In this document: positions 1-23,943 of the stretch, one piece after another
How positions within the stretch are numbered: the first letter of the stretch is position 1
How the letters are laid out: each line of letters starts with the position of its first letter
Source of the DNA: a virus
Direction: 5' to 3' (one strand)
DNA: 24,637 bases
Virus record (IMG/VR): IMGVR_UViG_3300043409_000401
Location: 1-24,637 of that record
The notes under the pieces: model-generated
Told to the model about the DNA's origin: nothing
Databases searched by the model: none
Seen by the model: only the letters and a program-made list of their open reading frames with translations
Program-made: the position numbers and the translations under genes

Positions 1-3000
1 GCAGCTTGGCGTGATCTTGCGCCTGACGATACAGCCCCATGGGGTTGAGCTTGCCGAGGCTGTCGCGCACTTTGCCATCGAACTGTTCGCGCAAGCGGTG
101 TTCAATCGTTGCTGCAGCGTCTGCTACTTGGGTGCGGAACTTAACGGCGTACCCCGGCTCGGCGGGTGATGTACCCGCTTTGAATGAGGAGATGAGCTTT
201 CGCAGGCCGTTCTCTGGAGCGGTCTCCAGTGGGCCCATGGAATCAATCAGGGCTTCCGTGCCCGGGGCCATGGCGAACTGCTTGCCGGTGGCGGTCGATG
301 TCTCTTGGAGTTCGGTAGTTGTGAGCTCGGTCAAGACCCCACCGATTCGCAGAATCTCACTCAGCGCGGTATCCGCTTTGGCAGTCAACCCCAGCACATT
401 ACGCACGGCTTCAACAAACTTGGTCCACAGCGTGGTGTTCTTGTACGGCACCGTTTCCATGTAGGCTTGCATGTCGCGGTTGGTCATGGTCCATGCCAGA
501 ACTTCATCGACGTCACGCATGTAATTGGAGCGCAGTTGTTTTTCTACCGCATTGAGAGTTTCCCCTCGGGCGTGCTTGGCATCAACATGTGTGAAGACCG
601 CCTTGGCCACGTCGTAGAGCTCACTGACTGTTTTACCGAGCCGAGTGTTAGCGGCGGAGCGCCTATTGCCAACCGAAAGGGCTCCCATTGTGGCCGTATG
701 AATCAACTCATGCAGGAGAATCTCTGGGGTGGTCCCGGATTGGTCGCCGTTTGATGGGTGATTCAGCGTGATCCGAACGGTGGATGGCATCCCGTTTGGC
801 CCGGGCTGCAGCCCCGAAACGCCTCGGGCTCCGCTGGCAAGCTGCTGCCCCGCAGGGGTAATTTTTACGGGCCCCATGATAACGCCCACAGCTTGGAGTT
901 CCCGCAAAGTGGCAGCAACTCGCTTGGCAATCATTTTCTGATCGGCGTCGGGAAGATTAGCTGCTGCCCAATTTGCGGCTTCCAGAATTGTCTTGCCCCC
1001 GATCGCTTGAACCATCGCTTCTTCGTCGGGCGGAAACGCCAGTTCCATTTGGCGCGTATCTGCCCCCGGGGTGGGGATCACGTCTTCTTTTCGGGCGTCT
1101 TCCGCCTGCTTGGCTTCCGCGTACTCAAGCTCCTCCCGCTTGCTCATGGGGAATAGCATGGCCTGCGGACCACGCAAGATTTCTTTCTGCCCTTCTTCCA
1201 TGCCGACTTCAGAAGCACCGACGGGCTCGTACATCTTCGATGGAATTTCTGTGGGCGCAGCTTTTTCGGCTTTGGGGGCAGGAGCCGGCGCAGCAGGTTT
1301 GGCGGGGCGTTTCTCCAAGGCTTCCATCTGGCGACGGACTGCTTCGGCTTCAGTTTGGCGGGCGGCTTCTTCGGCAGGAGTCTCTGCTACTGCTGCAGGG
1401 GGTGTGGCGCGTTCTCTCCGGTCAACAACATCCCATTGGCGACGCAGCCGGTCAATTTGGGTTTGGAAATCTTCCCATTGCTGGGCCTTCTTGGTATTGA
1501 CGCGCGGCATCCGGCCGGCACTGTCCAGCAATTCAAGTTGTTGGTCAGCCAGCGTTCTGATTTGTGTTTGCAAATCGCGGGAGGTTACTGCAGCAGGCTC
1601 TGCTCCTTGAGGCGCAACTCCCGGCATAGCAGGCCGTCCAGTAGGTACCAATCCGAGTCCGTCAGGTGTGACAGGTGCTTCGGCGGTGGGGGGAACTCCG
1701 GCTCCGGGTTGAACGCGTTCGGCAGGGGTAGGCTCACTAGGAACTCCCATGCTTGGCTCACCTGCTCCGGGCTCAATTCGCTGCTCAACTGCAGGCGTCT
1801 CGGTAATGGTCGGTTCGACACGGGGTGCCTCCTTAAATGGAGCTGGCTGTGGGGCCAGCAGTTCGCGCAGTATCTTGGCCTGTTGGGACGGGCCTTCAAT
1901 CAGGGCTGGGGTGCGCTTGACCAGTGCCTGTACTTCGGGAAGCGTTTTGCCAACGATGTTCTTCTCAAACCATGGTTGCATACCTTTGCGCATAGGCACG
2001 TTCACATCCAACACGTCCTGCATGGTAAGTGGTGCAGCCTGCTCAGGCATGGGGAACCCGCGCTGGGGCTCACGGCCTTCACGCACAGAACGCAGCGGCA
2101 ATTTGTACTGCAGAGGCGCTTTCTCTTTGGCCCCTCGCAGGATAGGCTCCGTTATGGGCGCCCCGGGCATTGGCGTGGTCGGAGCAATGACTCCTTCAGG
2201 GAACATCTCTCCTTGCGTACGGGCCTTCACTTCGTCAGGCATGGTCATCAACTCGGGGGCACCCGCCAGTCCGGGGAACTTCTTCCGAGCCTTGGCATCT
2301 TCCGCAGCTGCCATAGCTTGCGATTCGCGCTGGGCCCGGATGCTTTCGATGTCGCCCTGTGTGTACAGGGCCATTTGCGTGCCCAGCTCGGCAACCCGGG
2401 CTTTGATTTCCGGTGTTGGCTCCATCTGCTTGAGCCGTTCACGCTCTTGCACCATGTCCGCATACTCACGCTGGAAGTCAAGGTCAAGCCCTGTCTGTTC
2501 TGGGGATTGCGTTAGGCGTTGCGTGATCGCATCCATACGGGCCTGCGTCTCTGGAGTCGGCGCTTCAAGGCGCAGCTGCTCCCGCTCAGTTATCAATTCC
2601 GGCACAGTGGCAGCAGGAGGCTCAGGTACCCGGGTTACGGGCTCACCAAACATGTCCAGCTCAGGCTGTCTGGGCATAGGCGCTTCGCCGGGCTCGAATA
2701 AGGCACCTTGGGTACCGGGTTCCGCAGGTAGCGCAGGTTTTTCTTCAGTGGGCGTAGTCTTTGCCCCACGAGCACGACGGCCGAGGGCCATATCCATCAA
2801 GCCTTGAACGATGGCACCCGTAGCTCCGCCGTATGCAGCTTGCTCCCCCAGTCCTTCGATCAGGGCCTGTTCAGGTTTGTAGATGCCTTTGGCAATCAGG
2901 TTTTGGGCAAAGCCCGATGCAGCTTCCTGTGCCGCTTCTTCACCGCCCGCAATCAGGGCACGCTTGACTATCTCAACGCCAGCTGCAGTCGATGCAGTGG

Positions 3001-3568
3001 GGATACGGGACAAAATACGCAGCGGAGCAAACGCTTCCAACGCGCCGGGGATCATGCCCAGCGCCGTGGCGGTGCCCCGTTGTTCTCCAGTAGCCCCAGC
3101 TTCTTCCGCGCGGGTTCGTGATTCCCCAGCGCCGGCACCAACACCCAGACCAACGGCCGCAGCACGGCCAGCCAAGCCAAATGGTCCTGCCAACAGGAAC
3201 GGAGCCGTGGAGCCAATGGCTTCCCCGAGTTTGCGGGGGATGGTTTCTTCGTATCCGGGAGCGGCAGCAAATGGTTCTTTGGCGGCAGTGGCCACCGACT
3301 TGATTTTTTCCCGAGCGGACTTCTCCATATCCTCGGGCAGCAGCGCCGATGCGCCAGTAGCGGCACTTTCCAACAACCCCACCGCTCCGGGCACTATCCC
3401 TTTGAACAGCTCTTTGGCCCCACCCATCATGGTGGTTTCTGGCAGCGCTTGCCCGGCCTCGGGATTTTGTCCCAGTACAGCCTGCGCTACCTCCGCATCA
3501 CTTGCCCCCGGAGGGCCCTCTATCTGGTAACTTTTTCCGTTAGGGGCTGTGATGCGGTAGATTGGCAT
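1..3568 (-). CDS. Giant polyvalent virion (ejection) protein with HExxH zincin motif, N-terminal 1189 residues
   Basis: The frame is open from an ATG at 3568 to the window edge, so the C-terminus is missing. Residues 1-35 form a small basic-to-acidic domain (MPIYRITAPNGKSYQIEGPP) of a type often found at the N-terminus of phage ejection proteins. Residues about 47-268 are Gly/Ala-rich with amphipathic and hydrophobic helices, as in internal virion proteins. A long Pro/Glu-rich linker with predicted coiled coil runs to about residue 860. The motif HELIH lies at residues 953-957 (bases 698-712), and a downstream DEVLAW around E1022 could supply the third zinc ligand. Together these suggest a gluzincin-like peptidase domain within a large polyvalent protein. 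Family knowledge: such proteins are thought to enter the host with the DNA and carry several effector domains. The start lies 6 bases after the stop of the preceding gene, with no clear ribosome binding site. The exact substrate is unknown. Confidence 0.82.
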   Translation of the reverse strand, partial: MPIYRITAPNGKSYQIEGPPGASDAEVAQAVLGQNPEAGQALPETTMMGGAKELFKGIVPGAVGLLESAATGASALLPEDMEKSAREKIKSVATAAKEPFAAAPGYEETIPRKLGEAIGSTAPFLLAGPFGLAGRAAAVGLGVGAGAGESRTRAEEAGATGEQRGTATALGMIPGALEAFAPLRILSRIPTASTAAGVEIVKRALIAGGEEAAQEAASGFAQNLIAKGIYKPEQALIEGLGEQAAYGGATGAIVQGLMDMALGRRARGAKTTPTEEKPALPAEPGTQGALFEPGEAPMPRQPELDMFGEPVTRVPEPPAATVPELITEREQLRLEAPTPETQARMDAITQRLTQSPEQTGLDLDFQREYADMVQERERLKQMEPTPEIKARVAELGTQMALYTQGDIESIRAQRESQAMAAAEDAKARKKFPGLAGAPELMTMPDEVKARTQGEMFPEGVIAPTTPMPGAPITEPILRGAKEKAPLQYKLPLRSVREGREPQRGFPMPEQAAPLTMQDVLDVNVPMRKGMQPWFEKNIVGKTLPEVQALVKRTPALIEGPSQQAKILRELLAPQPAPFKEAPRVEPTITETPAVEQRIEPGAGEPSMGVPSEPTPAERVQPGAGVPPTAEAPVTPDGLGLVPTGRPAMPGVAPQGAEPAAVTSRDLQTQIRTLADQQLELLDSAGRMPRVNTKKAQQWEDFQTQIDRLRRQWDVVDRRERATPPAAVAETPAEEAARQTEAEAVRRQMEALEKRPAKPAAPAPAPKAEKAAPTEIPSKMYEPVGASEVGMEEGQKEILRGPQAMLFPMSKREELEYAEAKQAEDARKEDVIPTPGADTRQMELAFPPDEEAMVQAIGGKTILEAANWAAANLPDADQKMIAKRVAATLRELQAVGVIMGPVKITPAGQQLASGARGVSGLQPGPNGMPSTVRITLNHPSNGDQSGTTPEILLHELIHTATMGALSVGNRRSAANTRLGKTVSELYDVAKAVFTHVDAKHARGETLNAVEKQLRSNYMRDVDEVLAWTMTNRDMQAYMETVPYKNTTLWTKFVEAVRNVLGLTAKADTALSEILRIGGVLTELTTTELQETSTATGKQFAMAPGTEALIDSMGPLETAPENGLRKLISSFKAGTSPAEPGYAVKFRTQVADAAATIEHRLREQFDGKVRDSLGKLNPMGLYRQAQDHAKL

Positions 3569-3574
3569 AATGTG

Positions 3575-5275
3575 CTATGGCGTTATGACTTGGGCTTTAC
3601 CCCAGCCAGTGGTACTGGTTCCGCCGGGGCGAGCTGCGCCGGGGGCTGCCGCCATTGTACCTAGTCCTGCCATTTTTTCAATTTCTGCGTTTACTCGGGT
3701 AAGTTGGGCGTTGATAGCCGCGCGTTGATCTTTGTTGAACTCAGTCTTGAGCTGGGTAGCCAGTGACCCCTGCAGCGCTTTGAGTTCTGCAAGCTGCTGC
3801 TTATCGCCGCCCCCAGCGCCGCGCTCTTTGGCCGCAGCCAGCGTAGTACGCGCCTGCAACTGGGCCACATCCATTCGGCCTTGTTGTTCCACTTGGGTTT
3901 TGTAAATCCCAGCTGAGAGCTCCGCATCTTTGCCGGTGATGTCCATGATGCCTTTGATACCGACTTCCCGGGCTTTGTCCATGCGGGCTTCGGCCTTATC
4001 CTCAAAGGCTTGGGCTGTTTTCCAGTCCTCACGAGATTCCGCACGACGAGCTTGCTCAATTTCTCCGAAGGCTTTCTGGCGTTCCTTGGCGGCTTTCTTC
4101 ATGTCCTTTATGGCACCAGAATATTCGGTCAATGCAGTTCCGGCCGCGTCTCCGATGTTTTTGAACGCATTTGGCGATGTGCCCGCCATCATGCCCACTC
4201 CCAGTCGGAAAATAGCAACGCCTGTTGCTTCGTCTTTCTCTTTGCCAGCACCGGATTCTTCTTTTTTCAGCGACTCCTCATACTTGGAGTAGGCTTCACC
4301 CGCGGGCTTACCCTCTTCGCGACGGGCGCGGGCGGCTTCCACGAGCGTCGCCATATCTGTCTGGTATTTGCCAAGATCACTGCGCATGCCCTTGGTATCC
4401 AAGAACTGCCCGGCAGTTTCTTTTGCGCCTTGCACGGATGGGCCAACAGGACCGCGAAGCGCAGCGGCTTCACGAGTGCCGCCAAGACCAGCTTCCAGTT
4501 TTGGTTTCGGTTTTGGTGCAGGGAGATTTTCCAGTTGTTGAGGTGTCCTGATTTCTGTAGGTCGGCTGGTAGGCGCAGCTTTGGGTGCCGTCACCTTGTC
4601 TTTCCCCCATTCATACCCCGGGGCCTGTACCAGAGTCTTGACAATATCCCGAGGGTCTGGCACGTACTGGTCGATAAACCGCCCAACATTACCCATCTGG
4701 TCGCCGTAAGAGCTTGTACTGCCCCCTGCGGCTTCAATACGAGCCAAGCGTTCGGCACGTTCGGCTGCTTCGCGTTCACGAGTCTCCCGATTCATACGAT
4801 CGTATGGGGTCTCGTACGGACGAACTAAACCTTGATCCTGATACCGTTCAACACCCCCACCGTCCGCAAATGCCACGATCCCGCCGTCAGCGAAGTTCAT
4901 ATCGCCTGCAGGAAGTGCTGCAATACCCGCTTCGTCCGGTGACTGGGGTGCAGCCATAGGTTGGGATTGCCCACCGCCCGTAAATTCGCCATGCTCTGAT
5001 TGCTTTCTAGCTTCCAGCAGCTGGGACAGTCGGGCTAATTGGGCGGGGTTTAGAGTTCCCATGTCACCCATGCGCGCGAGTTCTTGATCGACCACTTTGG
5101 GCTGAGCTTGGGCAGGGCCCGCTTGTGCGGAGGCACGCATATCTTTGCGGCGCTTGGATTCCGACATGGCCAAGGCGATGATATAGGGGTCTCCCTTGTG
5201 CATCATGGCGTACTGCTGCAGGGACTGGTCTGGCATCTTGGCCAGACGGGAGGTTATCTGTTCAATGTTAATCAT
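3575..5275 (-). CDS. Internal virion / DNA-ejection protein, coiled-coil, 566 residues
   Basis: The start ATG overlaps the stop of the preceding gene in an ATGA, indicating translational coupling. The N-terminal 100 residues are helical and polar. At residues 128-140 two copies of the FADGG tag occur 8 residues apart. The middle is Pro/Lys/Ala-rich and low complexity. A glycine-rich hydrophobic stretch near residues 350-380 (RLGVGMMAGTSPNAF) is typical of phage ejection proteins in this position. The C-terminal third, to about residue 535, is strongly charged and heptad-like, suggesting coiled coil. No enzymatic motif is seen. Its place between two other low-complexity virion proteins and the giant polyvalent protein supports a role inside the capsid or in the conduit formed during genome entry. 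The function is inferred from context and composition, not from a named domain. Confidence 0.7.
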   Translation of the reverse strand: MINIEQITSRLAKMPDQSLQQYAMMHKGDPYIIALAMSESKRRKDMRASAQAGPAQAQPKVVDQELARMGDMGTLNPAQLARLSQLLEARKQSEHGEFTGGGQSQPMAAPQSPDEAGIAALPAGDMNFADGGIVAFADGGGVERYQDQGLVRPYETPYDRMNRETREREAAERAERLARIEAAGGSTSSYGDQMGNVGRFIDQYVPDPRDIVKTLVQAPGYEWGKDKVTAPKAAPTSRPTEIRTPQQLENLPAPKPKPKLEAGLGGTREAAALRGPVGPSVQGAKETAGQFLDTKGMRSDLGKYQTDMATLVEAARARREEGKPAGEAYSKYEESLKKEESGAGKEKDEATGVAIFRLGVGMMAGTSPNAFKNIGDAAGTALTEYSGAIKDMKKAAKERQKAFGEIEQARRAESREDWKTAQAFEDKAEARMDKAREVGIKGIMDITGKDAELSAGIYKTQVEQQGRMDVAQLQARTTLAAAKERGAGGGDKQQLAELKALQGSLATQLKTEFNKDQRAAINAQLTRVNAEIEKMAGLGTMAAAPGAARPGGTSTTGWGKAQVITP

Positions 5276-6840
5276 GCCCGGTCTCCCATCATGTCGGCGA
5301 TCGCCAAATCCATCAATCCGCCGTCAGCATACCCGCGAACCGCCCCGCCTTTTGCCATGAGCTTGCTTGCACCGAGTGCTGCAGTGCCGAGTCCGGCCAT
5401 TTGCGAAATCGGGCTTGGGGGCGCCGCATACAGGGACTGGGTTGTGCCCATGGGTGTTCCACGGATCATGTTGGACATAAACTCCAACTGCTGGTACGGG
5501 TATTTTTCCTGAGCCGCATATTCTTGCTGTTGCGAAGCAATTCGAGCTTGGTCCAACTGCTGCTGCTGGGTACCGTAAGCCTGTTGCAGCTTGTTGACAT
5601 CCATACCTTGCGTAAACTGCTGCTGACCCAAAGCGCCGAGTTGACCAGCTCCAGTAAGGGCCGTCTGCAAACCCTGCAAGCCAAGACCAGCGCCATATTG
5701 ACGGGACTGCTCCTCAAGCTGCTGTGCTGACTGGCCGTACTGGGCCCCGGTCTGAGCGCCCGTCATGGCTTGTTGCGCGGCAAACTGATTTGCAGCCTCT
5801 TGTGCCTGCTGTGCCGACATGCCGTATTGGGCTTGAAGCTGCGCTGCAGTCAGGCCTTGACCTGCGCCAAACTGACGTGATTGCTCCGCCAGTTGTTGAG
5901 CTTGCATTCCAGTCGTTGCGCCAAGCTGTTGCACGCCAAGTTGTGCGGCCAAGTTTTGTTGACCCGTAGTCAGGCCAGCTTGTTGGTTGGCCATTTGAGC
6001 TTGCATGCGTGCTTGCTGTTCGGCATTAAATTGCTGTTGGGCTTGTTGGTATGCAGCCTGTGTGCCGGTGGCTTGGATGTCGCCCTTCTGGGTTGCCAAG
6101 TTCCGCGCAGCTTCTGCATCCATGATGGCCTGACGGCTGCCGCCAAACGCACCTTGACTAACGGCCTGTGCGCCGCGTTGTGTGCCCGCAATATCGGCAG
6201 TCCGCTGAGCTTCACGCTGCTGCTTCTCCACCACACTTTGCATGTACGGGGACATGTAGGCTTCGGCAGCGCCGGGCTGTGCAAAAGACTGTGTGCCAAC
6301 TTGCTGAGCTGGCCCCATGCCGTATTGTTGCAACTGGGGTGCGCGTTCGCCTGCCGCTTGAAACTGGCCGGGCGCTTGAAAGGGGTTCTGGAACTGCGAG
6401 GGATTGTATGCGCCGGGGGCTTGGAACTGATTCCCAAACTGCCCAGCGTCATACCCGGTGCCAAGCGCACGCTCAGAAGCCAAGGCGGCAGTAGCGGCAC
6501 CCAGCCCAGTAGCAGCGGAGGGCTGCATTAGGCCCGCGCCCTCATAAGCCTTGGTCTGCAAGCCCGTGGGCCCCGCGACGGTCTGACCGGACAGCCCTTG
6601 CTTCCCCGCCCAAGTCCCGTAACTTTGGTAGGGCTGATCTTGGGTTAGTGTCTTGGTACGGGACAGGGCGTCTTCAGCGTACGGCTTTACCCAATCAGGG
6701 ATGTCCGTAATTTGAGTTTGCGTCGCGCTACCGCCGCCTCCGCCTCCGCCGCCGTAAATGATACGACCGGCTTCTTTACGGGTTGCGCTGTCGCCCAAGG
6801 GCTCGCCAAAGGCTTCAAGTTGTCGGCGTGAGTAGCTCAT
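5272..6840 (-). CDS. Gln/Ala-rich internal virion protein, 522 residues
   Basis: Translation starts in an ATGA overlap with the acetyltransferase gene. After a short N-terminus there is a run of eight glycines (about residues 30-37), then a segment with IPDWVKPYAEDAL. From about residue 100 to 440 the chain is extremely rich in Gln, Ala and Gly, with irregular repeats of AQQ, GAQ and SRQ(F/Y)GAG type. This suggests a long helical or fibrous body. Near the C-terminus comes a conserved-looking block, YPYQQLEFMSNMIRGTPMG, and the protein ends with MAKGG and YADGG tags (residues 495-508). Composition and neighbours match the internal core or ejection proteins of podovirus-like phages. No catalytic residues are visible. 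An alternative is a tail-tip or tape-measure-like role, which I consider less likely because of the Gln/Ala bias and the neighbours. Confidence 0.68.
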   Translation of the reverse strand: MSYSRRQLEAFGEPLGDSATRKEAGRIIYGGGGGGGGSATQTQITDIPDWVKPYAEDALSRTKTLTQDQPYQSYGTWAGKQGLSGQTVAGPTGLQTKAYEGAGLMQPSAATGLGAATAALASERALGTGYDAGQFGNQFQAPGAYNPSQFQNPFQAPGQFQAAGERAPQLQQYGMGPAQQVGTQSFAQPGAAEAYMSPYMQSVVEKQQREAQRTADIAGTQRGAQAVSQGAFGGSRQAIMDAEAARNLATQKGDIQATGTQAAYQQAQQQFNAEQQARMQAQMANQQAGLTTGQQNLAAQLGVQQLGATTGMQAQQLAEQSRQFGAGQGLTAAQLQAQYGMSAQQAQEAANQFAAQQAMTGAQTGAQYGQSAQQLEEQSRQYGAGLGLQGLQTALTGAGQLGALGQQQFTQGMDVNKLQQAYGTQQQQLDQARIASQQQEYAAQEKYPYQQLEFMSNMIRGTPMGTTQSLYAAPPSPISQMAGLGTAALGASKLMAKGGAVRGYADGGLMDLAIADMMGDRA

Positions 6841-7298
6841 GTTGGCTCCGTGCTCAAAAGTTTTGTGTACAGCTTATCCGTCAGTTTGTACCCAAGGTAC
6901 TCGAATAGCTTTGAATTGTCCAAGTGAATCTTGGTGTGCATGATGATACGATTTACGCCGTCATCTCTCAAGGCCTGTTCAGCAAACTGAAACAAGCGAA
7001 TCCCAGTGCGGCCCAGCCGCTGATCTTTGCGCAGAAAGTAAATGTCTTCAAACGCAGTCTTACATGTGCTGTAGTGCAGATGCGGCTGAACAATGAACAA
7101 TGCGTACCCAATCAATTCCCCGTCGGACCTCGCCACAATGCACTTGAGCATTTCCGCCACGCAAAGTCGCCCGTATGCCGCATAGTCTGGCATCAACGGA
7201 AAGTCTTTGGTCACGCACAACTCATCGTAATGCACCGGCAAAAGACTTTGCAACTCATCAATAAAAGTTGCGGGATCAGCGACGGAGTAGTCGATCAT
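6837..7298 (-). CDS. GNAT-family N-acetyltransferase
   Basis: This 153-residue protein has the length and order of a single GNAT domain. Residues 64-70 (GYALFIV) form the central strand. Motif A follows as DIYFLRKDQRLGRTGIRLF (85-103), where the QRLGRTG loop would bind the pyrophosphate of acetyl-CoA, followed by the FAEQAL helix. Motif B is NSKLFEYLGYKLTDKLYTK at the C-terminus. GNAT enzymes transfer an acetyl group from acetyl-CoA to an amine; the substrate here cannot be told. The gene overlaps both neighbours by ATGA, so its translation is coupled to two probable ejection proteins. That suggests it is made late, and either modifies a virion or host protein or is carried in the particle. 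The family assignment is firm, the role is open. Confidence 0.85.
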   Translation of the reverse strand: MIDYSVADPATFIDELQSLLPVHYDELCVTKDFPLMPDYAAYGRLCVAEMLKCIVARSDGELIGYALFIVQPHLHYSTCKTAFEDIYFLRKDQRLGRTGIRLFQFAEQALRDDGVNRIIMHTKIHLDNSKLFEYLGYKLTDKLYTKLLSTEPT

Positions 7299-8716
7299 AC
7301 TGGCAGAAGTCTTTCAGCTTTGGTATTGGTGGCCACACGGCCTTTGCCGGTGGTCTTGGCGCGGGCTTTTTGCACACGGTCCATCATGGCGTACAGCTTG
7401 CGGGCGCCAGCCTCGGTCGAGCCATTACCAATCTCCGACACAATGCGGGCGGGAACCACGAACTCGCCATCAGCCAAACGCGCAGGGCGCTTGTCACCGA
7501 TAGAGGCTGGGATGCTGTCTGAAACCCCATCACCCGGCCCACGCAGCAAACGACCGCCATCGGAGTAATCCCCCAGATGGCTCTGACCGCCTTTGGCAAA
7601 GTTTTCAGCGCCAGTATATGGATTGACGGACGTGTCGCTTACGCCGCCTTGCGCATACGCCGGGCGCATTTGTGATTGATTTTGCTGCGACATTGCCTCA
7701 ATTGGGTTGATGTCCATGAGGCCACCACCCGCTGCCATCTCAGTGGTAGTCTTCGGCCTCTTGATAAAGGGGCTTGTACGGTTTGTGGGGTCGTACTCGT
7801 AGTCGTAATCCAGCATGGACCCTGAGTAGGGCTTTTTAACCGGCTCAGGTGTTTGCATCAGCATGGGAGCCGCAGCCATCATGCCGTACTTCATCAAACC
7901 GCTGGTCCCGCCAACACCTTGGGCTTCGACACCTTTGGATGCAGCATTGCCCATGAACGCTGAACGCCCTTCTGGAGTCGTCAGCGCTTCAATACCTCTG
8001 GCCGATTGCGAGAGCTTATCCATTCCCGTGGGCGGCGTAAGTGTCTGTACCGGCGCAGCAATTGTGGGTTGCAGGGGCGCAGCTGGGGGAGCAACCGGCG
8101 CAGCAACCGTAGGAGTAACCGGCGCAGCAGGAATGGCAGAAGGAGAAAATGTGGATGGCTGAATACCCTGCGCGGCCATGTCCGCTTGAAACCCAGCGCC
8201 CAGTTGTCCAGCGGTCTGGGCCCCCAAAGAAGCCCCAGTTGCGCCTATAGTTGGCGCCACACCTTGAGCGGCCAGTGACGCCTCAAGCCCTGTACCAAGC
8301 TGCGCCGCCGTTTGCGGACCCATAGCACCCAAACCAGCAGCCCCCGCCTCTGCTGCACCAGCAGCGCCTGCGCCCATCAAACCCGCACCCAAACCAGCGC
8401 CGCCGAAAGCGCCCAAGCCCGCCATCAGACCTTTCTTCAAGCTGCCAGTAGCGGCAGTGTAGCCCGCGCCAGTAATCAAAGCTGCAGACAAGCCGCCAGT
8501 GAAGGGGGCCAGACCGAAGCCGATAAGCATCGGCAAAATGCTCGACAAGAAGCCCGCTTCGGGTAAACCCGTATCAGGGTTTGTGGTCAGTGATCCACCG
8601 TGGGCCTTGGCCAACGCGTGTAGCCCAGCAACTTCTTGCGGGGCCATATGAATCAACTGAGTATCCGGACCTCTGCCACGGGAGGCAAGGTGTTGTGCAG
8701 CAAGTTGTAGGCTCAT
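7295..8716 (-). CDS. Gly/Ala-rich virion protein with conserved C-terminal DGEFVVPA module, 473 residues
   Basis: The start is supported by GAGG five bases before the ATG. Residues 1-50 are a polar N-terminal block (MSLQLAAQHLASRGRGPDTQ). Residues about 55-130 are highly hydrophobic and Gly/Ala-rich and could insert into a membrane. An imperfect duplication of about 30 residues follows (about 129-190, each copy with QLG.G..A..AAQG). The middle is Pro/Ala/Thr low complexity. Residues 327-388 carry MAAGG, YAQGG, FAKGG and YSDGG tags. The C-terminus has a compact conserved-looking module (GPGDGVSDSIPASIG, then RPARLADGEFVVPARIVSEI, then KLYAMMDRVQ) and a basic tail. The first gene of the ejection run, it is probably a pore or internal virion protein. 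No enzyme domain is recognised. Confidence 0.7.
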   Translation of the reverse strand: MSLQLAAQHLASRGRGPDTQLIHMAPQEVAGLHALAKAHGGSLTTNPDTGLPEAGFLSSILPMLIGFGLAPFTGGLSAALITGAGYTAATGSLKKGLMAGLGAFGGAGLGAGLMGAGAAGAAEAGAAGLGAMGPQTAAQLGTGLEASLAAQGVAPTIGATGASLGAQTAGQLGAGFQADMAAQGIQPSTFSPSAIPAAPVTPTVAAPVAPPAAPLQPTIAAPVQTLTPPTGMDKLSQSARGIEALTTPEGRSAFMGNAASKGVEAQGVGGTSGLMKYGMMAAAPMLMQTPEPVKKPYSGSMLDYDYEYDPTNRTSPFIKRPKTTTEMAAGGGLMDINPIEAMSQQNQSQMRPAYAQGGVSDTSVNPYTGAENFAKGGQSHLGDYSDGGRLLRGPGDGVSDSIPASIGDKRPARLADGEFVVPARIVSEIGNGSTEAGARKLYAMMDRVQKARAKTTGKGRVATNTKAERLLPV

Positions 8717-8721
8717 GTGTG

Positions 8722-8725
8722 CCTC
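8722..8725 (-). promoter_or_regulatory. Ribosome binding site of the 473-residue virion gene (GAGG-CACAC-ATG)
   Basis: Identical to the initiation region of the long fibre gene over 12 bases. It lies in the 34-base gap, the widest in the window. Confidence 0.75.
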
Positions 8726-8750
8726 GCGGGAAGGGGGTTAATCGAGTCTA

Positions 8751-9626
8751 TCACGCCGGGAGCGCGGACACAAATGTGGCCGTCAGAATGAGAGAGGGGG
8801 AAACTGGAGTTACTGGAGCAGTACCAGCAGGGAATGTGGCGACGACTGTGTTTCCGCTTAAGGAGGAGAAGTAAATCTCAATGTAATCGTTGACGTTCAT
8901 GTTAACGATGAGGTTCCACCCATCAATACCGCTTCCGGGGTCGCTGCCGTGTTTGCCGTTAACTTGCACAACACCCGCGCTGTATGGAATGTCCACCCCG
9001 TTCTGCTTAAACCACATGGACACGTTATCTTCAGTGGTGGTGAAATTCAAGAGCTGGGCGGTGAACTGGAAGTTGTACACCCCGGCGACCGTGGCTTTTA
9101 CCCTTGAGGTGTTAACTCCATCAAGCTCCACACCAAAACTGGCAGCAGTGGTCGTTAATATCATGGCTTGCGCCGTAGTGGCGTTGGGCACCCCAAGAGA
9201 TTCAGTAACGGCAACCCCAGCGGTATGGGCTACGTTGGTTGTTCCGTATACGCCTCGGGTGATTCCTGTGAAGGTGGTGGATGTCTTGCCGGTGTACTTG
9301 ATCAACTCGTCTTCGATCAGCAAGCCCCCGGACGCAGTAAAGCCTGTGGTGGATGTAACCTCTATCGGGGTTGTTGAGTTATTGGTCATGTCCGCCGTCA
9401 AAAACGAAGCCCCGTCTTGAAAGAACGAACCGTAAGGAACCTGCAAGACTGACGTTGTGGCATTGGTCTCAAGCTGCGCCAAGATGGCGTCAAGCCGGTT
9501 GAAATATAAACGCAGCACATCGCTGTGCTGGTCATGAAACCTTGCCTCGTACTGGACCGGAGCCGTAGGCAAGCGCGGCGCAACAACCCGGTTCAGCTCA
9601 AATTCAGAAGTAACAATTAAAGTCAT
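8751..9626 (-). CDS. Tail-associated protein with C1q/TNF-like C-terminal domain, 291 residues
   Basis: The ATG lies 3 bases after the stop of the hub gene, with AGGTGA upstream. Residues 25-55 are helical (DVLRLYFNRLDAILAQL), suited to trimeric coiled coil. Residues about 85-145 form a Thr/Gly-rich beta segment (IEVTSTTGF, ELIKYTGKTSTTFTGITRGV), a pattern seen in many phage tail and baseplate proteins. Residues about 155-290 alternate beta strands ending in a pattern like C1q/TNF jelly rolls (VKATVAGVYNFQFTAQL, then NVNDYIEIYFSS). This points to a trimeric virion surface or tail-tip protein, perhaps receptor-binding or a short appendage. The jelly-roll call rests on strand pattern and familiarity with phage homologues, not on a search. 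Confidence 0.65.
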   Translation of the reverse strand: MTLIVTSEFELNRVVAPRLPTAPVQYEARFHDQHSDVLRLYFNRLDAILAQLETNATTSVLQVPYGSFFQDGASFLTADMTNNSTTPIEVTSTTGFTASGGLLIEDELIKYTGKTSTTFTGITRGVYGTTNVAHTAGVAVTESLGVPNATTAQAMILTTTAASFGVELDGVNTSRVKATVAGVYNFQFTAQLLNFTTTEDNVSMWFKQNGVDIPYSAGVVQVNGKHGSDPGSGIDGWNLIVNMNVNDYIEIYFSSLSGNTVVATFPAGTAPVTPVSPSLILTATFVSALPA

Positions 9627-9629
9627 AAG

Positions 9630-11576
9630 TCACCTACGTCCATCAGGACGGATGTCGAGCGAAGGAACGCCCAGCTGCCACTGCACACCCAAGCCGTCCG
9701 AGCTGATACGGAACGCCATCTGGCGGCCACGGACACGGACGTAGACGATCTCAGTGAACTGCTGCACCGTGTAGTTACGCTGGCCTTGGTAGTTCTGCGT
9801 GCTGGTTACAACCGGGGTTGCCGAGGTGTTGTACGCTGCGCCGGGGTTCTGCCGGGGCTTGAGCGTCATGGTGACAGCCGGGTTGTTTACATACGACCCA
9901 TCAAAGGTTACGTCGGGAATCATGCGCCAGACAAAACCGTAGTTATGGCCATCACCAATATTGGAGTCAGCAGACTGAATGAATGAACTGATCGGGCTTG
10001 GCGGGTTTGTGGTGCCGTCGTCTACGCCGTTTTCATGGTAAATGACTTGGTTACCATACCCAGTTGCCGTCGGGTATTGGCGCAAGGGTGTATCAAGCCA
10101 AGATGTTCTTGCCATATTGCCGTAAGACCAGATGCGTTCCAAGTGGTTATAAATTACGTAACGATCAATGGTTGTCGAATTGGCCGAGCAGTAGAACCAC
10201 CAGATTTCGTTGAAGCCTTCATTGGTTCCAGCGAAGAACTGATACTGTTGCTCAAGGTTAATGTTGCCGAAAATGTATTGGCGCAGCGGGCAGGCCAGAG
10301 TTTCCACACGACCGGAGTACATGTAGAACTTATCGAGCCCCATCCAGTATGTAATGTTGGCGGCAGTTGCCTGTACGTTTGGACCAGCAATAGAGATGTT
10401 TTCCCCCAGAATCTGGAAGCCCCAAATAAATGGTGGGCCAAGGTACTGCATGGAATACAACGCTGCGTCCGTCCACACCAAGATTTCCTGCCGTGCCTGC
10501 AGGTGCGCAACAATAGACGACCCGGTACTGAGCTGGTAACTGCCCGCTTGGTTTGTGATGGCTGGAGCCCACAGCGCGTAGTTTTCTTGGTCCGACCAAC
10601 GCACCAACAGCGGGTTTTGTATAGCGGAGCCGTAGTCATTGCAGCCGAAAGCGATCACAAACCGCGAAGCGTCAGAAATGGCGATCGCAGCCGCAACTGT
10701 CGGGCAGCTTGTATCTGTTGTGTATGGCGCGGGGCTGGTGGGGGATAGTAAAACCGCACGGTCATATGTAGAGGGGCTGGCGTTTACTTTCCAAAGATAA
10801 ATGGCACCGTTGCGGGGATTGATAATCAAATCCTGCCCGTAGTTATCCTGACTCCACAAGCGCAGTTGCTGGCCAACACCCACGCCCGCAGGAGCTGGAA
10901 CACCCCAACCCGTGCTTGTATACCCGGGGTTTACGCCGCCCCAGCCGCCAGAACCCCAGCCGACGCCAATTGTGTAAACGTCACCGCCAACAGAAATCTG
11001 ATAGGTAAACGTGGCCGCGCCAGTCGTGCCAGACGATGTAGCAGGAGCCCCTACAACAATGCTGTACTTTAAAGCGTCAATGTACGTGATGCGAAATTCA
11101 AGGTTTAGTGACGCTGCAGGGATGCCGTTTACAGCACCCGCCACGCCAGAGATGGTTACAAAATCCCCCGTTTGTCCTGCATACCCTGCGTCATTAACGA
11201 TAACCGTTGTAGAGCCATTGACTGTGGTGAAGGCGTTGGCTGCAATAATATTAACGTCACGGATTGGGGTGATGTCGTAAAAGCTACCGCCTGCGGTCTG
11301 CTGGATGTAGTACTTCAGGTTTGTTCCAACGCCCAGCAAGTTGGCTCCGCTCAACGTGATCCAGTTCCACAGAGAGCGGGCAGTTCCCCAGAATGAACCT
11401 GTGGGTGGCTGCAACACGGAGGTGGCTGTTCCGCGATCGGCAACCCAACCGCCCAGCTTCTCGGGATAGCCCGAGCGAAATCGCACCTTGTCCATCTCAA
11501 ACCAAGTGCCTTCGTTGGCCAGCGTTGTGGATTCTCGATTGACGCCCGGACGGAGTAGGAGTTTTTGTAATGGCAC
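9630..11576 (-). CDS. Tail hub / tubular structural protein (P22 gp10-like role), 648 residues
   Basis: I chose a GTG start at 11576. It is preceded by GAGGT at five bases and gives the N-terminus MPLQKLLLRPGVNRESTTLA, which is the usual beginning of this phage family. The block DKVRFRSGYPEKLGGW (residues about 29-44) is its signature. The rest is beta-rich with many Trp, Tyr and Gly residues and repeated short strands, compatible with a beta-propeller-like hub. Proteins of this type in metagenomic podoviruses sit next to head-tail adaptors and are considered equivalents of the P22 gp10 hub or T7-type tail tubular protein B. The gene lies between the endolysin and a tail protein, 8 bases after the endolysin stop. 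That it is a structural tail component is well supported; the exact equivalence is inference. Confidence 0.72.
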   Translation of the reverse strand: MPLQKLLLRPGVNRESTTLANEGTWFEMDKVRFRSGYPEKLGGWVADRGTATSVLQPPTGSFWGTARSLWNWITLSGANLLGVGTNLKYYIQQTAGGSFYDITPIRDVNIIAANAFTTVNGSTTVIVNDAGYAGQTGDFVTISGVAGAVNGIPAASLNLEFRITYIDALKYSIVVGAPATSSGTTGAATFTYQISVGGDVYTIGVGWGSGGWGGVNPGYTSTGWGVPAPAGVGVGQQLRLWSQDNYGQDLIINPRNGAIYLWKVNASPSTYDRAVLLSPTSPAPYTTDTSCPTVAAAIAISDASRFVIAFGCNDYGSAIQNPLLVRWSDQENYALWAPAITNQAGSYQLSTGSSIVAHLQARQEILVWTDAALYSMQYLGPPFIWGFQILGENISIAGPNVQATAANITYWMGLDKFYMYSGRVETLACPLRQYIFGNINLEQQYQFFAGTNEGFNEIWWFYCSANSTTIDRYVIYNHLERIWSYGNMARTSWLDTPLRQYPTATGYGNQVIYHENGVDDGTTNPPSPISSFIQSADSNIGDGHNYGFVWRMIPDVTFDGSYVNNPAVTMTLKPRQNPGAAYNTSATPVVTSTQNYQGQRNYTVQQFTEIVYVRVRGRQMAFRISSDGLGVQWQLGVPSLDIRPDGRR

Positions 11577-11581
11577 GGTTT

Positions 11582-11586
11582 ACCTC
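11582..11586 (-). promoter_or_regulatory. Ribosome binding site GAGGT before a GTG start
   Basis: GAGGT overlaps the endolysin stop codon and stands five bases before the GTG at 11576 of the hub gene. Confidence 0.7.
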
Positions 11587-12097
11587 ACGCGGTCATGGAT
11601 GAGGCTGTCGATTGCACTTCCGCCACACGGCGCTGCCAGCCACGACCAAATGTACTCCAATGTGGCAAATCCATCAAGAAGGAAAGACGACGTTTGGCGT
11701 AATCCTCAACCAGCTCGGACGGGTCCATGGCGGTTACTGCGGCCAGCGTCTTGGGGCCAATGCCGCCATCAGGCTCAACACCCACACAGGATTGCAACCA
11801 CTTGGCTGCTCGTCCGGGGCCACTGTTTACAGCAGCATCAAACACCGTGTAGTCCACGCCAGTTGGCAGGTCATCGCCTTTAATCTTGTCCCAATACTTG
11901 GCCCGGTACAGCGGGGCTACGGTGGCAGGAGTCAGTGCCCGCATCTGCTTTTCGTCCACAGGATGGCCAACCCACTCTTCCCAGACCTTTTTGGTGACGC
12001 CCAGATTTGTCATGCCCCCCGGATCGGCAGGATGATCTACGAAGCCCCCTTCGTGCGCCAGCAGTTTTTGCAAGGCTTCGGCAAAGTTCTGTTTCAT
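11585..12097 (-). CDS. Endolysin, GH108-type N-acetylmuramidase with C-terminal peptidoglycan-binding region
   Basis: This 170-residue protein begins with EALQKLLAHEGGFVDHPADP, the hallmark of glycoside hydrolase family 108, where the Glu of the EGG motif (E16) is the catalytic acid. PGGMTNLGVT follows as usual. The C-terminal half contains GPGRAAKWLQ and DGGIGPKTLAAV (residues about 92-121), matching the PG_binding_3 region found with this family. There is no signal peptide, so export should depend on a holin. The gene overlaps the upstream holin candidate by ATGA, a classic lysis-cassette arrangement. Function: cleaves the glycan strands of the host cell wall at the end of infection. Length and domain order are normal for the family. 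Confidence 0.93.
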   Translation of the reverse strand: MKQNFAEALQKLLAHEGGFVDHPADPGGMTNLGVTKKVWEEWVGHPVDEKQMRALTPATVAPLYRAKYWDKIKGDDLPTGVDYTVFDAAVNSGPGRAAKWLQSCVGVEPDGGIGPKTLAAVTAMDPSELVEDYAKRRLSFLMDLPHWSTFGRGWQRRVAEVQSTASSMTA

Positions 12098-12591
12098 TTC
12101 ATGGCTTTCATCATGGCGTCGGTCTTGTCTTTGCTGGACTTGCTGGAGCCAAAGAAGAAGTTAAAAAAGCCCGTTAGGACTGTCCCTATCAACACCCCAA
12201 GGATGGTGTCTGCCATGCGGATACCGCTTTCGGCAACAGTGCCAAAGGTTACAAAGGCAAAGTAGGTCATGGCGAAGATGGACCACGCGCTGGTGAACAC
12301 GTACAGAAAGGTCTTGGCAAACCAGTCTTCTTGCTGCAATGCAACAATCTGCATGGCGCGGGCACCGTCACGGTCTTTAACTTCAAGCTCAAACTGGCGC
12401 AGGTCTATTTCCGCAAGTTTTGCAGCCGCTTCAGGGTCTGCTTGGATGGCTTGCGTGACCGCCTCAACAGTATCTTCAACCCCAAGTTTCTCAGCAATAG
12501 CACGAACAGCCATGCCGCCAAGGGGGCCAGCAACAATAGTCGCAAGACCGGGTGCCACATTTTTAAGCAATCCAGCAAGTAGCTCATTCAT
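12094..12591 (-). CDS. Holin candidate (GTA-type 3TM holin-like), 165 residues
   Basis: The start at 12591 is chosen because AAGGAG lies six bases upstream; an in-frame ATG 30 codons earlier would run into the preceding gene and lacks support. The N-terminus has a moderately hydrophobic segment with a Gly/Pro core (NVAPGLATIVAGPLGGMAV, 11-29). An acidic helix rich in Ala and Glu follows (residues 40-85). Two clear membrane segments lie at about 94-118 and 127-148, ending in a short Lys/Ser-rich tail. This order resembles the three-TM holins described for gene transfer agents (family GTA_holin_3TM). Direct overlap with the endolysin supports a role in lysis. It could also be an unrelated membrane protein of the lysis module. 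Confidence 0.7.
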   Translation of the reverse strand: MNELLAGLLKNVAPGLATIVAGPLGGMAVRAIAEKLGVEDTVEAVTQAIQADPEAAAKLAEIDLRQFELEVKDRDGARAMQIVALQQEDWFAKTFLYVFTSAWSIFAMTYFAFVTFGTVAESGIRMADTILGVLIGTVLTGFFNFFFGSSKSSKDKTDAMMKAMK

Positions 12592-12593
12592 CT

Positions 12594-13055
12594 TTATCTC
12601 CTTATGTACAGCATGTAAATCACGATGCCGTAGATCATCAATCCTGTCAGAACGAGCGCAGCAATGCTGATCGCAATCCATTCCACCAGCTCTTCCATCT
12701 TTTTCTTGCGCTTAGCCACGGCACGACTTGCGGCTTCTTTATCTTCGCGCCTGCGACGGGCAGCTTGCGCTTGGAATTTTACCCAGTCCTCCCACAACCC
12801 CGGACGGCCTGCATAAATCATGCGCTCACGCAACTCCACCTCTTGGGCGTTGAGCTGCTCCAAGGCCATGAACTCTTCCATGTCAGACCGAGCTGCGCCG
12901 CCAGCGGCTTTCGTGGTGGCCTTTTCCTGAATCTTGGCTTTGTTGTCAAAGTAATCAAAGACGCGCCCACCTATCGCCGACAACTCTTTTCCGTTGTTGA
13001 GAGCGGCTTTGATTACTTGAAACGCTGCATTTGCAGCAGCCAGTTCGGCCAACAT
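12594..13055 (-). CDS. Tail-anchored membrane protein with coiled coil, 153 residues
   Basis: Residues 1-25 are Ala-rich and helical, residues 55-120 highly charged (SDMEEFMALEQLNAQEVELR, later RRRREDKEA and RKKKMEE). A single membrane segment at about 126-150 closes the protein, followed only by IRR. This is a C-terminal tail anchor with a cytoplasmic coiled-coil body. The conserved-looking block MIYAGRPGLWEDWVKFQ (79-95) is familiar from phage proteins of unknown function near lysis genes. The gene lies 2 bases before the holin candidate. It might take part in lysis, for example as a holin regulator or a spanin-like part, but an inner-membrane spanin would carry its anchor at the N-terminus, so I do not call it Rz. 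Confidence 0.7.
   Translation of the reverse strand: MLAELAAANAAFQVIKAALNNGKELSAIGGRVFDYFDNKAKIQEKATTKAAGGAARSDMEEFMALEQLNAQEVELRERMIYAGRPGLWEDWVKFQAQAARRRREDKEAASRAVAKRKKKMEELVEWIAISIAALVLTGLMIYGIVIYMLYIRR
12598..12603 (-). promoter_or_regulatory. Ribosome binding site AAGGAG fixing the holin start at 12591
   Basis: AAGGAG lies six bases before the ATG, inside the last codons of the upstream gene. It excludes the 30-residue N-terminal extension. Confidence 0.85.
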
Positions 13056-21976: not shown

Positions 21977-22171
21977 TTAACCTCGCTTTTGTGCTGCGAC
22001 TTTGGCCAAGTTACGGCCCATGGTCTTCATATCAGCATTGGACTTGCCGCCGCCGCTTTTGCCGGGTTTACCCCCCGCTTGGATTGCAACGGTTGGGCCG
22101 CTGTCGCCCAGATTTTTACCTTTGGTCTTGCCTTTGGAGGCAATGCCGTCTGCAGATCGTGTAAATGCCAT
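21977..22171 (-). CDS. Very small Gly/Lys-rich phage protein, 64 residues
   Basis: A strong AAGGAG six bases before the ATG argues that this short gene is translated. The N-terminus carries ADGIASKGKTKGKN, a motif partly shared with neighbouring small proteins. The rest is rich in Gly, Lys and Ser with AGGKPGKSGGGKSN, and ends in a basic helix (MKTMGRNLAKVAAQKRG). It is likely disordered and nucleic-acid- or partner-binding, but this is inference from composition only. Confidence 0.6.
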   Translation of the reverse strand: MAFTRSADGIASKGKTKGKNLGDSGPTVAIQAGGKPGKSGGGKSNADMKTMGRNLAKVAAQKRG

Positions 22172-22571: not shown

Positions 22572-23270
22572 TTAGGCCCCACCCCCGATGAACATCCGGC
22601 GCGGAACAAACCGAATAGCCGCCTTTTCACGGTCCTCACTGGAAGCCAAATCCCAAGCCTCGTCATACTGCGCTTTAAGCACTTGCAGGCGCTCCAGCCC
22701 GCCCGGAACCTTCATGGCCAAGTAATAGGCCAGTCCCGCGATCATGGCGGGGAGGAATCGGAAGGGCATGTCCATGGTGTTCACGCCTTCGCCCGCGTTC
22801 TGGATACGGCGCAAGCGCCAGTACACCAGCGTGTAGGTCTGGGAGTTGTCTGGCACGGGCCATACGGTGAACTGTGGGGTGTTCAAGCGCTCAATCCAAA
22901 TCTGAATTGGGCGGGCCTGAGTCAGCTTGTTGGGGATCGTGGCATAGGTAGAAACACTGATACGCGTGATGGTCAGGTCTGCCTGTGTCGAGGCGCTTCC
23001 CGCGCCCGTGCGAATGACGTGCTCCATCAAATCCACCGTATCGGCCGGAAGGGGGTAGGTGGCGACGCCCGGGATCAGCACTTGCGTGCCTTGCTCGAAC
23101 GTCCACATGTTGATGCCCCGGTTGGCCCAGTCAGCAAACAAGAGATTCAGCGACCGGCGCGCAGTGCGCAGGTCATAGCCCGTCCGCATCTCGCCGCCAA
23201 CGCGCTCAAACGCCTCTTCAACGATCTCCGTTAAATCGACATTGAAGTTTGCGACGCCTGATGTGGTCAT
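22572..23270 (-). CDS. Head-tail adaptor / tail accessory protein, P22 gp4-like, 232 residues
   Basis: The N-terminal helices contain DLTEIVEEAFERVGGE and RTGYDLRTARRSLNLLFADW, followed by NRGINMWTFEQGTQVLIPG and TYPLPADTVDLMEHVIRTG. A beta-rich centre (PQFTVWPVPDNSQTYTLVYW) leads to a helical end (YYLAMKVPGGLERLQVLKAQ, then DEAWDLASSEDREKAAIRFV). This pattern matches phage proteins that HMM comparisons usually link to P22 gp4, the ring that closes the portal and starts tail assembly. Two adaptor-type proteins, this one and the SU10-type one, thus occur within 2 kb. The assignment is by pattern memory, so the fold should be considered probable rather than proven. Confidence 0.65.
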   Translation of the reverse strand: MTTSGVANFNVDLTEIVEEAFERVGGEMRTGYDLRTARRSLNLLFADWANRGINMWTFEQGTQVLIPGVATYPLPADTVDLMEHVIRTGAGSASTQADLTITRISVSTYATIPNKLTQARPIQIWIERLNTPQFTVWPVPDNSQTYTLVYWRLRRIQNAGEGVNTMDMPFRFLPAMIAGLAYYLAMKVPGGLERLQVLKAQYDEAWDLASSEDREKAAIRFVPRRMFIGGGA

Positions 23271-23273
23271 GGG

Positions 23274-23555
23274 TTACTTCATTTTCTTGAGAGTCTGCGC
23301 CAAACGCGCGCGTTGCCCCAGTTTACCCGGAGCGGCTGCAGCTTTGGCCAGCTTTTTGGCCGGGATCGGTTGGCCTTCTTTTGCGCCAAGTGCGGAGCGC
23401 AGGGCCCCGGGCTTCTTGATTGCGCCAGAAATCCACTTATCCGTCGAGCCGCCTTCAGCGTACTGCGTGAAGTCGGTGTTATCCCGGCGGGCTTTAGTCA
23501 CGCCTTTGGGCATCTTGGAGGGGGCGATGTCCCCCATTCCGCGACTGGCTCTCAT
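23274..23555 (-). CDS. Small basic phage protein with YAEGG tag, 93 residues
   Basis: I prefer the ATG at 23555, one base after the upstream stop, giving MRASRGMGDIAPSKMPKGVT, which is the recurrent opening of this phage family. A longer in-frame start at 23588 would overlap the previous gene by 32 bases. The tag YAEGG is at residues 32-36. The C-terminal half (WISGAIKKPGALRSALGAKE, then KLAKAAAAPGKLGQRARLAQ) is basic and helical. The function is unknown; the positive charge suggests contact with DNA or with an acidic partner in the capsid. Confidence 0.65.
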   Translation of the reverse strand: MRASRGMGDIAPSKMPKGVTKARRDNTDFTQYAEGGSTDKWISGAIKKPGALRSALGAKEGQPIPAKKLAKAAAAPGKLGQRARLAQTLKKMK

Positions 23556-23556
23556 A

Positions 23557-23943
23557 TCAGCAGGCCTTGCCGCCCTTGGACATGGCAATCATCTTGCCCT
23601 TGGTTTTACCCTTGACAGCGCAGCCATCAATAGCGCCACCTTTGGCCATCTTGGTCATGCCACCAGCTTTGAGGCCGGCGTGGGCTTTGGAAGCGGGTTT
23701 GGATGCGTGTTTGGCCAGCGCATCTTTGCCCTCGCCAGCGCCTTTTTTCTTGGCCATCATTGCCATGAAGCCGGGGTTCATTTTGGAAGCCATAGTGTTA
23801 CCACCTTCTTTGAATTTGCGGCCCTTGTCCGCAGTTGAAAAATCTTTGCCCACGGATTGTGGAACGCCTACTTTCTTCGCAAAGGCCGGGCTATGCGCCA
23901 CAGCGTTCATGAAGTTGTGTTGTTTCTTACTCGTCGATGGCAT
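23557..23943 (-). CDS. Small basic Lys/Ala/Gly-rich protein, DUF3008-like start, 128 residues
   Basis: The first 45 residues (MPSTSKKQHNFMNAVAHSPA then KKVGVPQSVGKDFSTADKGR) resemble the opening of DUF3008-type phage proteins. The rest is rich in Lys, Ala, Gly and Met, with tags FKEGG (44-48), LKAGG (91-95), MAKGG (99-103) and MSKGG (121-125) and a DGCAVKGKTKGK motif (106-117). It overlaps the end of the holin-like gene by 17 bases. A second possible start, M51, has GAAGGTGG upstream, so the gene may be a fusion of two small proteins or encode two products. No function is established. Confidence 0.62.
   Translation of the reverse strand: MPSTSKKQHNFMNAVAHSPAFAKKVGVPQSVGKDFSTADKGRKFKEGGNTMASKMNPGFMAMMAKKKGAGEGKDALAKHASKPASKAHAGLKAGGMTKMAKGGAIDGCAVKGKTKGKMIAMSKGGKAC

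Follow-up and report, generated by a model that had tools for sequence, protein, structure and literature searches.

Tape measure proteins of siphophages are virion proteins that are ejected, and the C-terminal parts of several have been described. The T5 tape measure pb2 is cut after R1127, a position mapped with mass spectrometry (PMC10038345). The tape measure of phage JBD30 is a trimer, modelled in the baseplate core for its 33 C-terminal residues, and its residues 1022–1066 are predicted by the authors to form a hook that would keep hold of the protein once the C-terminal part is released (PMC11445458). In phage Douge, tape measure residues 1658–1699 were built (PMC13033339). Podoviral ejection proteins are usually treated apart from these proteins. 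Here we analyzed a 24.6 kb virus record (IMG/VR IMGVR_UViG_3300043409_000401, 24,637 nucleotides; hereafter the window), in which a five-residue tag, [MFYW][AS]xGG (aromatic residue or Met, Ala or Ser, any residue, Gly-Gly), recurs in three proteins of an ejection cluster. The last tag of one of them opens a C-terminal module that is also found in siphophage tape measure proteins. With slightly better than even confidence, we favor the reading that the tag is a junction motif placed before portable modules of virion-region phage proteins.

Recurrence and conservation of the tag

The gene order of the window resembles that of short-tailed phages, and it is from gene order that we call the tagged proteins ejection proteins, as presumed components of the virion. 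A preliminary description of the window had placed eight tags in three proteins, and all eight are present, each on the minus strand. The 566-residue protein (3575–5275) consists of a helical N-terminal module, a tag pair and a remainder for which homologues do not align; its tags are FADGG at residues 128–132 (4880–4894) and, 8 residues further on, FADGG at 136–140 (4856–4870). The Gln/Ala-rich 522-residue protein (5272–6840) carries MAKGG at 495–499 (5344–5358) and YADGG at 504–508 (5317–5331), which precedes a conserved C-terminal peptide, GLMDLAIADMM in the window and of the GLAELALSKI type in relatives. The 473-residue protein (7295–8716) is a tape measure- or pore-like member of the cluster, with relatives in sequenced phages that are annotated as tape measure proteins. 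It has MAAGG at 327–331 (7724–7738), YAQGG at 354–358 (7643–7657), FAKGG at 373–377 (7586–7600; relatives often have a tag at equal C-terminal distance) and YSDGG at 384–388 (7553–7567). None of the three proteins could be assigned with Pfam or PHROG.

Expected tag counts were taken from composition-matched shuffles. For the single proteins, these gave P values of 0.005 (566 residues), 0.019 (522 residues) and 0.0002 (473 residues, shuffled with an alternative start that leaves 450 residues). The larger sample comprised the window and 109 related loci from viral contigs, with genes called by a purpose-written codon-usage caller. Its 1083 distinct proteins held 541 tags versus 99 after shuffling, and the excess was confined to three clusters, those of the 566-, 522- and 473-residue proteins. 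The 473 family had 292 tags versus 20.9 expected, with all 83 members tagged, and the 566 family 84 versus 3.8, with all 48 members tagged; the 522 cluster had 99 versus 13.6, but contains further genes besides the 522 family, including neighbors that look like diverged 566 proteins. Combined, the three clusters thus held 475 tags versus 40.5 expected (11.7-fold), whereas the remaining 815 proteins were at chance (66 versus 62, or 1.06-fold). Reduction to one representative per 50% identity cluster left 84 versus 6.6 (473), 53 versus 2.5 (566) and 38 versus 3.8 (522), numbers reached by none of 1000 shuffles in any of the families. Control motifs, that is shifted, reversed or non-aromatic versions, gave only 0.26–2.5-fold expectation in the three clusters, so the exact grammar of the tag matters. 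The recurrence is genuine, far above chance and stronger than the preliminary description stated. The tagged proteins are indeed rich in Gly and Ala; nevertheless, a chance origin of the tag from such low-complexity sequence has been refuted by the composition-matched shuffles and by positional conservation, and its probability is negligible.

Conservation of position was seen in the 473 and 566 families. In 38 aligned C-termini of the 473 family, all five residues of YSDGG were invariant, 90 residues from the protein end, and the tags upstream of it differed between members in both number and location. For the 566 family, 31 N-termini were aligned, and invariant columns were found in the helical N-terminus, in a GI..LP stretch and in the tags, namely A129, G131 and G132 of the first and G140 of the second, with G139 conserved in at least 90%; AxGG occurs in every aligned sequence. 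The codons behind these residues vary, with 207 distinct 15-mers among the 292 tags of the 473 family. Selection therefore acts on the peptide, and an origin of the tag as a DNA repeat or recombination site was rejected.

The tag is also restricted to one part of the genome. Among the 321 genes called in four near-complete relatives, those that resemble virion-region loci, a grouping by sequence similarity to related loci and not by proteomics, contained 37 tags versus 9.3 expected; the remaining 169 contained a single tag versus 1.8 expected. The preliminary description had named equal tag frequency in non-virion proteins and a lack of positional conservation as refuting its idea of a sorting, scaffold-binding or protease signal. 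Neither was what we found, so that the idea withstood both tests and is partly supported.

The last tag and the tape measure C-terminal module

A conserved C-terminal module, YSDGG..GPGDGVSDSIPA..LADGEFVVPA, starts with the YSDGG tag of the 473-residue protein. In the window this module spans 7370–7567 (minus strand; YSDGGRLLRGPGDGVSDSIPA..LADGEFVVPARIVSE..GNGSTEAGARKLYAMMDRVQ), and its assignment as tape measure-type comes from hhalign, weak PHROG matches and a chain of tblastn searches. The PHROG matches of the C-terminus were to three tape measure families (E about 0.01). With tblastn, it matched phages GB2A (4e-6) and DSL-LC04 (1e-3), where the matched genes are annotated as tape measure and the gene order is as in the window. 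The modules of GB2A and DSL-LC04 in turn matched 405 and 869 phage records (E up to 0.1), and most of the matches listed were annotated tape measure proteins of long-tailed phages. An alignment of nine siphophage modules matched the podoviral profile with an hhalign probability of 97.6% (E 2.9e-12), with YSDGG placed over FATGG. In siphophage tape measure proteins the module lies towards the C-terminus; in the 473 family it begins 90 residues from the protein end. The preliminary description had noted no other obvious sequence common to the three tagged proteins. This holds, except that YSDGG, as fourth tag in the 473-residue protein, sits in a larger, known tape measure module. The idea that the tag is special to ejection proteins had to be given up, as it also occurs in siphophage tape measure proteins.

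In phage lambda, the tape measure gpH has FATGG at 733, YATGG at 778 and FSGGG at 848, around a GEFVFTKEATSRIG stretch; FATGG and YATGG stand in the region that corresponds to the module. The combined module profile scored only 6.9 bits against gpH, yet this was above all 500 shuffles. TIGR01541 covers the gpH region of FATGG 733 and YATGG 778, and in both lambda and Dinoroseobacter phage R5C the tags lie just past Tape_meas_lam_C. The R5C tape measure reads FADGGMVPVFADGGRISGPG and has a stretch, FADGGMVPVFADGGRISGPGTGRSDSI, that resembles FADGGIVAFADGG of the 566-residue protein. Tape measures of lambda, 9NA and MP22 match known tape measure domain models strongly; the 473-residue protein had no match in Pfam or NCBIfam, including the tape measure domains (TMP_2/TMP_3 and the TIGR models).

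By phmmer, the module is present in the tape measure sequences of JBD30 (8rk3) and Douge (8zdo). The modelled residues of both structures exclude it, and the predicted JBD30 hook overlaps it. Profiles made from both alignments found no useful match among solved structures, and a single-sequence query matched only 8rk3 and 8zdo. Models of the 473 C-terminus and the 566 N-terminus made with AlphaFold2 (AF2) were dropped for fold search, because the tag regions were too uncertain. Our literature searches found no paper that describes tag or module by sequence.

In the 473-residue protein, the last tag is hence the first element of the C-terminal module of siphophage tape measures. Given that this tag opens the module, the protein is most likely the short-tailed counterpart of a tape measure or pore protein, and its C-terminus would be held by the module.

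The GPGTGTSDSI module was also seen in two further settings. Pelagibacter phage HTVC115P has it in gp72 (5230–6237 of its locus), between the portal and capsid genes. In Pseudomonas phage F116 it stands at the extreme N-terminus of p58 (around 7025–9052 of its locus), where the annotated start looks too late; an in-frame upstream start adds LAEGGRV.

Module exchange at the tag and a portable tail

Two tagged proteins, at 23277–23537 and 23557–23943, had been missed in the preliminary description. They adjoin an adaptor-like gene (22572–23270) that matches Pfam SU10_adaptor. The first, of 87 residues, has YAEGG at residues 26–30 (23448–23462, minus strand), followed by a C-terminal module (WISGAIKKPGALR...; 23277–23447, minus strand). 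Across phages, this family has a common N-terminal half ending RRDxTDFTxYAEGG, and then one of four unrelated C-terminal modules; at the same gene position, the window and its closest relative differ in this module. The second, of 128 residues (minus strand), carries FKEGG at 44, MAKGG at 99, MSKGG at 121 and DGCAVKGKTKGK at 106–117, and its N-terminus matches phrog_16759 and the virion structural phrog_22033. In head-region loci fetched with this protein, tags occurred mainly in two clusters (159 versus 9.3 expected and 40 versus 1.7).

Exchange of modules at the tag might be taken to mean that the tag is a passive flexible linker, recurring since gene fusions reuse one joint. The tags indeed lie between modules in low-complexity stretches of low model confidence: in the AF2 model of residues 1–165 of the 566-residue protein, the helices at 4–51 have a predicted local distance difference test score (pLDDT) of 75–87, and the tags of about 50. 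However, fixed spacing of an aromatic residue, Ala or Ser and GG would not be needed in a passive linker, reversed and shifted motifs are less enriched than the tag, and the varied codons speak against a shared DNA joint. We thus consider the passive linker rather unlikely.

A second peptide, [RA]DG[CI]AxKGKTKGK, occurs in two unrelated window proteins, at 23593–23628 in the 128-residue protein and as ADGIASKGKTKGK at 22115–22153 (minus strand) in a protein of 64 residues (21977–22171). In the loci of the 128-residue protein and the relatives, 68 small head-region proteins carry (R)ADG[IC]AxRGKT[KR]GKM at their C-terminus or a few residues from it. The bodies of these proteins fall into 29 unrelated families by blastp, a count that may be somewhat too high. 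Just before this C-terminal tail stands a tag, in loose form in 62 and in strict form in 39 of the 68. The tail mostly begins at the tag, followed by ADGIAQRGKTRGKM. At least two proteins with the second peptide were found in each of 41 contigs; the window itself holds only variants of the tail core. Within one contig, 83% of the tail core residues agree, and only 52% of the agreeing residues share the codon. Recent DNA copying therefore does not explain them. Such a tail on 29 unrelated families suggests sorting, in line with one part of the preliminary description. The sorting or anchoring information, however, is more likely to lie downstream of the tag than in its five residues, because the clearest tags mark the start of a longer module.

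The tag might alternatively dock by itself, each copy binding a groove on a shared partner, such as the portal, a scaffold or an internal protein, and recruiting proteins into the particle. This would agree with several copies per protein, with several non-homologous tagged proteins per genome and with the restriction to virion-region genes. Hydrophobic residues are rare at the third tag position, as they would be if it faced outwards. Moreover, in DSL-LC04 an otherwise unrelated PcfJ-like protein, encoded between the terminase and portal genes (10347–12821 of that locus), bears three copies, FAMGG, MADGG and FAEGG, in an N-terminal extension. Yet tagged siphophage tape measures sit in the tail tube, where there is no evident partner that a head protein could share, no partner was identified, and the family of the giant neighbor protein, which is presumably ejected as well, is depleted in tags (1 versus 11.8 expected). 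Docking hence seems to us an improbable, though not far-fetched, role.

The giant neighbor (2–3568, minus strand) is cut by the window end. Over only a short stretch, it has PHROG matches to a family of virion RNA polymerases (E 1e-13), and one homologue carries LPD38, a large polyvalent protein domain. It also contains a HELIH string, and HExxH occurs in 34 of 60 giant-neighbor proteins. We set it aside as a candidate protease, since tags persist in DSL-LC04 and GB2A, where the proteins in this slot lack HExxH. Between the tagged 473- and 522-residue genes lies a GNAT-type acetyltransferase gene (6837–7298, minus strand; Pfam Acetyltransf_1, E 4e-6). One genome-contig scan for host hints found no relative.

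Possible cutting and anchoring, and known systems

The preliminary description had also considered a protease signal, for which there is one real precedent. The T5 record has as residue 1127 the Arg of FVPRAEGGMMYPG, and the mapped cut falls between R1127 and AEGGMM. AEGG is one of two [AS]xGG sites in the 1219 residues of pb2; a randomly placed cut would directly precede such a site with a probability of 0.0016. Removal of a 20-residue leader from P22 gp7, as given in its record, was rejected as a further GG precedent, because the cut lies before, not at, GG. In lambda, a cut at FATGG737 would take off 12.2 kDa, close to the roughly 12 kDa reported to be lost by gpH on processing, and the tag gives a concrete candidate position for the gpH cut. 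Every tag might hence be a site at which a host protease removes the downstream module after assembly, and the reference list of the T5 paper contains a title on selective host involvement in T5 tail-protein cleavage (PMC10038345). Tandem tags only 8 residues apart fit cutting poorly, however, the T5 site begins with Arg and not with an aromatic residue or Met, and in the records of 18 relatives no protease of the S78 or ClpP type was found, these being the families searched. As a general role, host-protease cutting is thus doubtful. For the phage of the window, cutting at tags is conceivable, albeit tentatively and by analogy to T5.

The same three points also weigh against the tag as a junction motif, as do several others. 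The T5 site is one case only, chosen in hindsight. AF2 gave module and tags no confident fold (mean pLDDT 58 and 64), and the strict tag is present in only part of the 522-family members. The classical ejection proteins T7 gp14 and gp15 and P22 gp7 and gp20 are without tag, from which it follows that the tag is not general among ejection proteins. On the other side, the junction motif is supported directly by the statistics, the positions, the restriction to the virion region, the identity of the module, the exchange at the tag and the position of the T5 cut. The tag, often followed by one residue and then Val, Ile or Leu, would join modules of proteins that apparently end inside head or tail. 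Most likely it would form a hinge, exposed at the point of exit of the chain from a folded part; anchoring through the module and presence of the tagged proteins in the virion are likewise inferred. At some tags, as at the site mapped in T5, the module might be severed in the course of assembly. An unlikely, broader possibility is a general junction code in long- and short-tailed phages alike, in which the tag starts a portable targeting or anchoring module recognized by a host protease or shared partner, and unrelated proteins would join the virion by gaining tag and module.

Among known systems, T7 gp14/gp15/gp16 and P22 gp7/gp20/gp16 resemble the window in being clusters of adjacent genes, in which one protein is giant and another hydrophobic and rich in Gly and Ala. 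The three tagged proteins had no sequence match to them in PHROG or Pfam, nor was there a significant match of the 473 C-terminal profile to T7 and P22 proteins; T7 gp16 has one FSTGG. The T5 pb2 maturation site is similar to the tag in its AxGG and in its place at the start of a C-terminal part. It differs by its Arg and as a single site, and no cutting is known in the phage group of the window.

Also among the known systems are the siphophage tape measures of lambda (gpH, TIGR01541), of the Casadabanvirus phages JBD30 and MP22, of Douge (gp16), 9NA and R5C. They share with the 473-residue protein, presumably likewise an ejected virion protein, the order of [FYM]AxGG and then GPGxGxSDSIxAxLSxGE(Y/F)V near the C-terminus. 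In contrast to them, the 473-residue protein lacks known tape measure domains and a long tape, and its gene lies in a four-gene ejection cluster in which two unrelated neighbors are tagged without having the module. One module and one motif thus link podoviral ejection proteins and siphophage tape measures.

T4 internal proteins carry capsid-targeting sequences, which are N-terminal, whereas the tail in relatives of the window is C-terminal and the 18 records searched hold no S78 or ClpP protease. Like the capsid localization signal of P1 DarB (PMC9024508), this tail is a short peptide, and in the relatives it is found on many unrelated head-region proteins (68 proteins, 29 families), as would be typical for capsid targeting. 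From its sequence and distribution, the tail might direct proteins of unrelated families to the head. If it is indeed a packaging signal, small unannotated phage proteins borne in the virion would become predictable.

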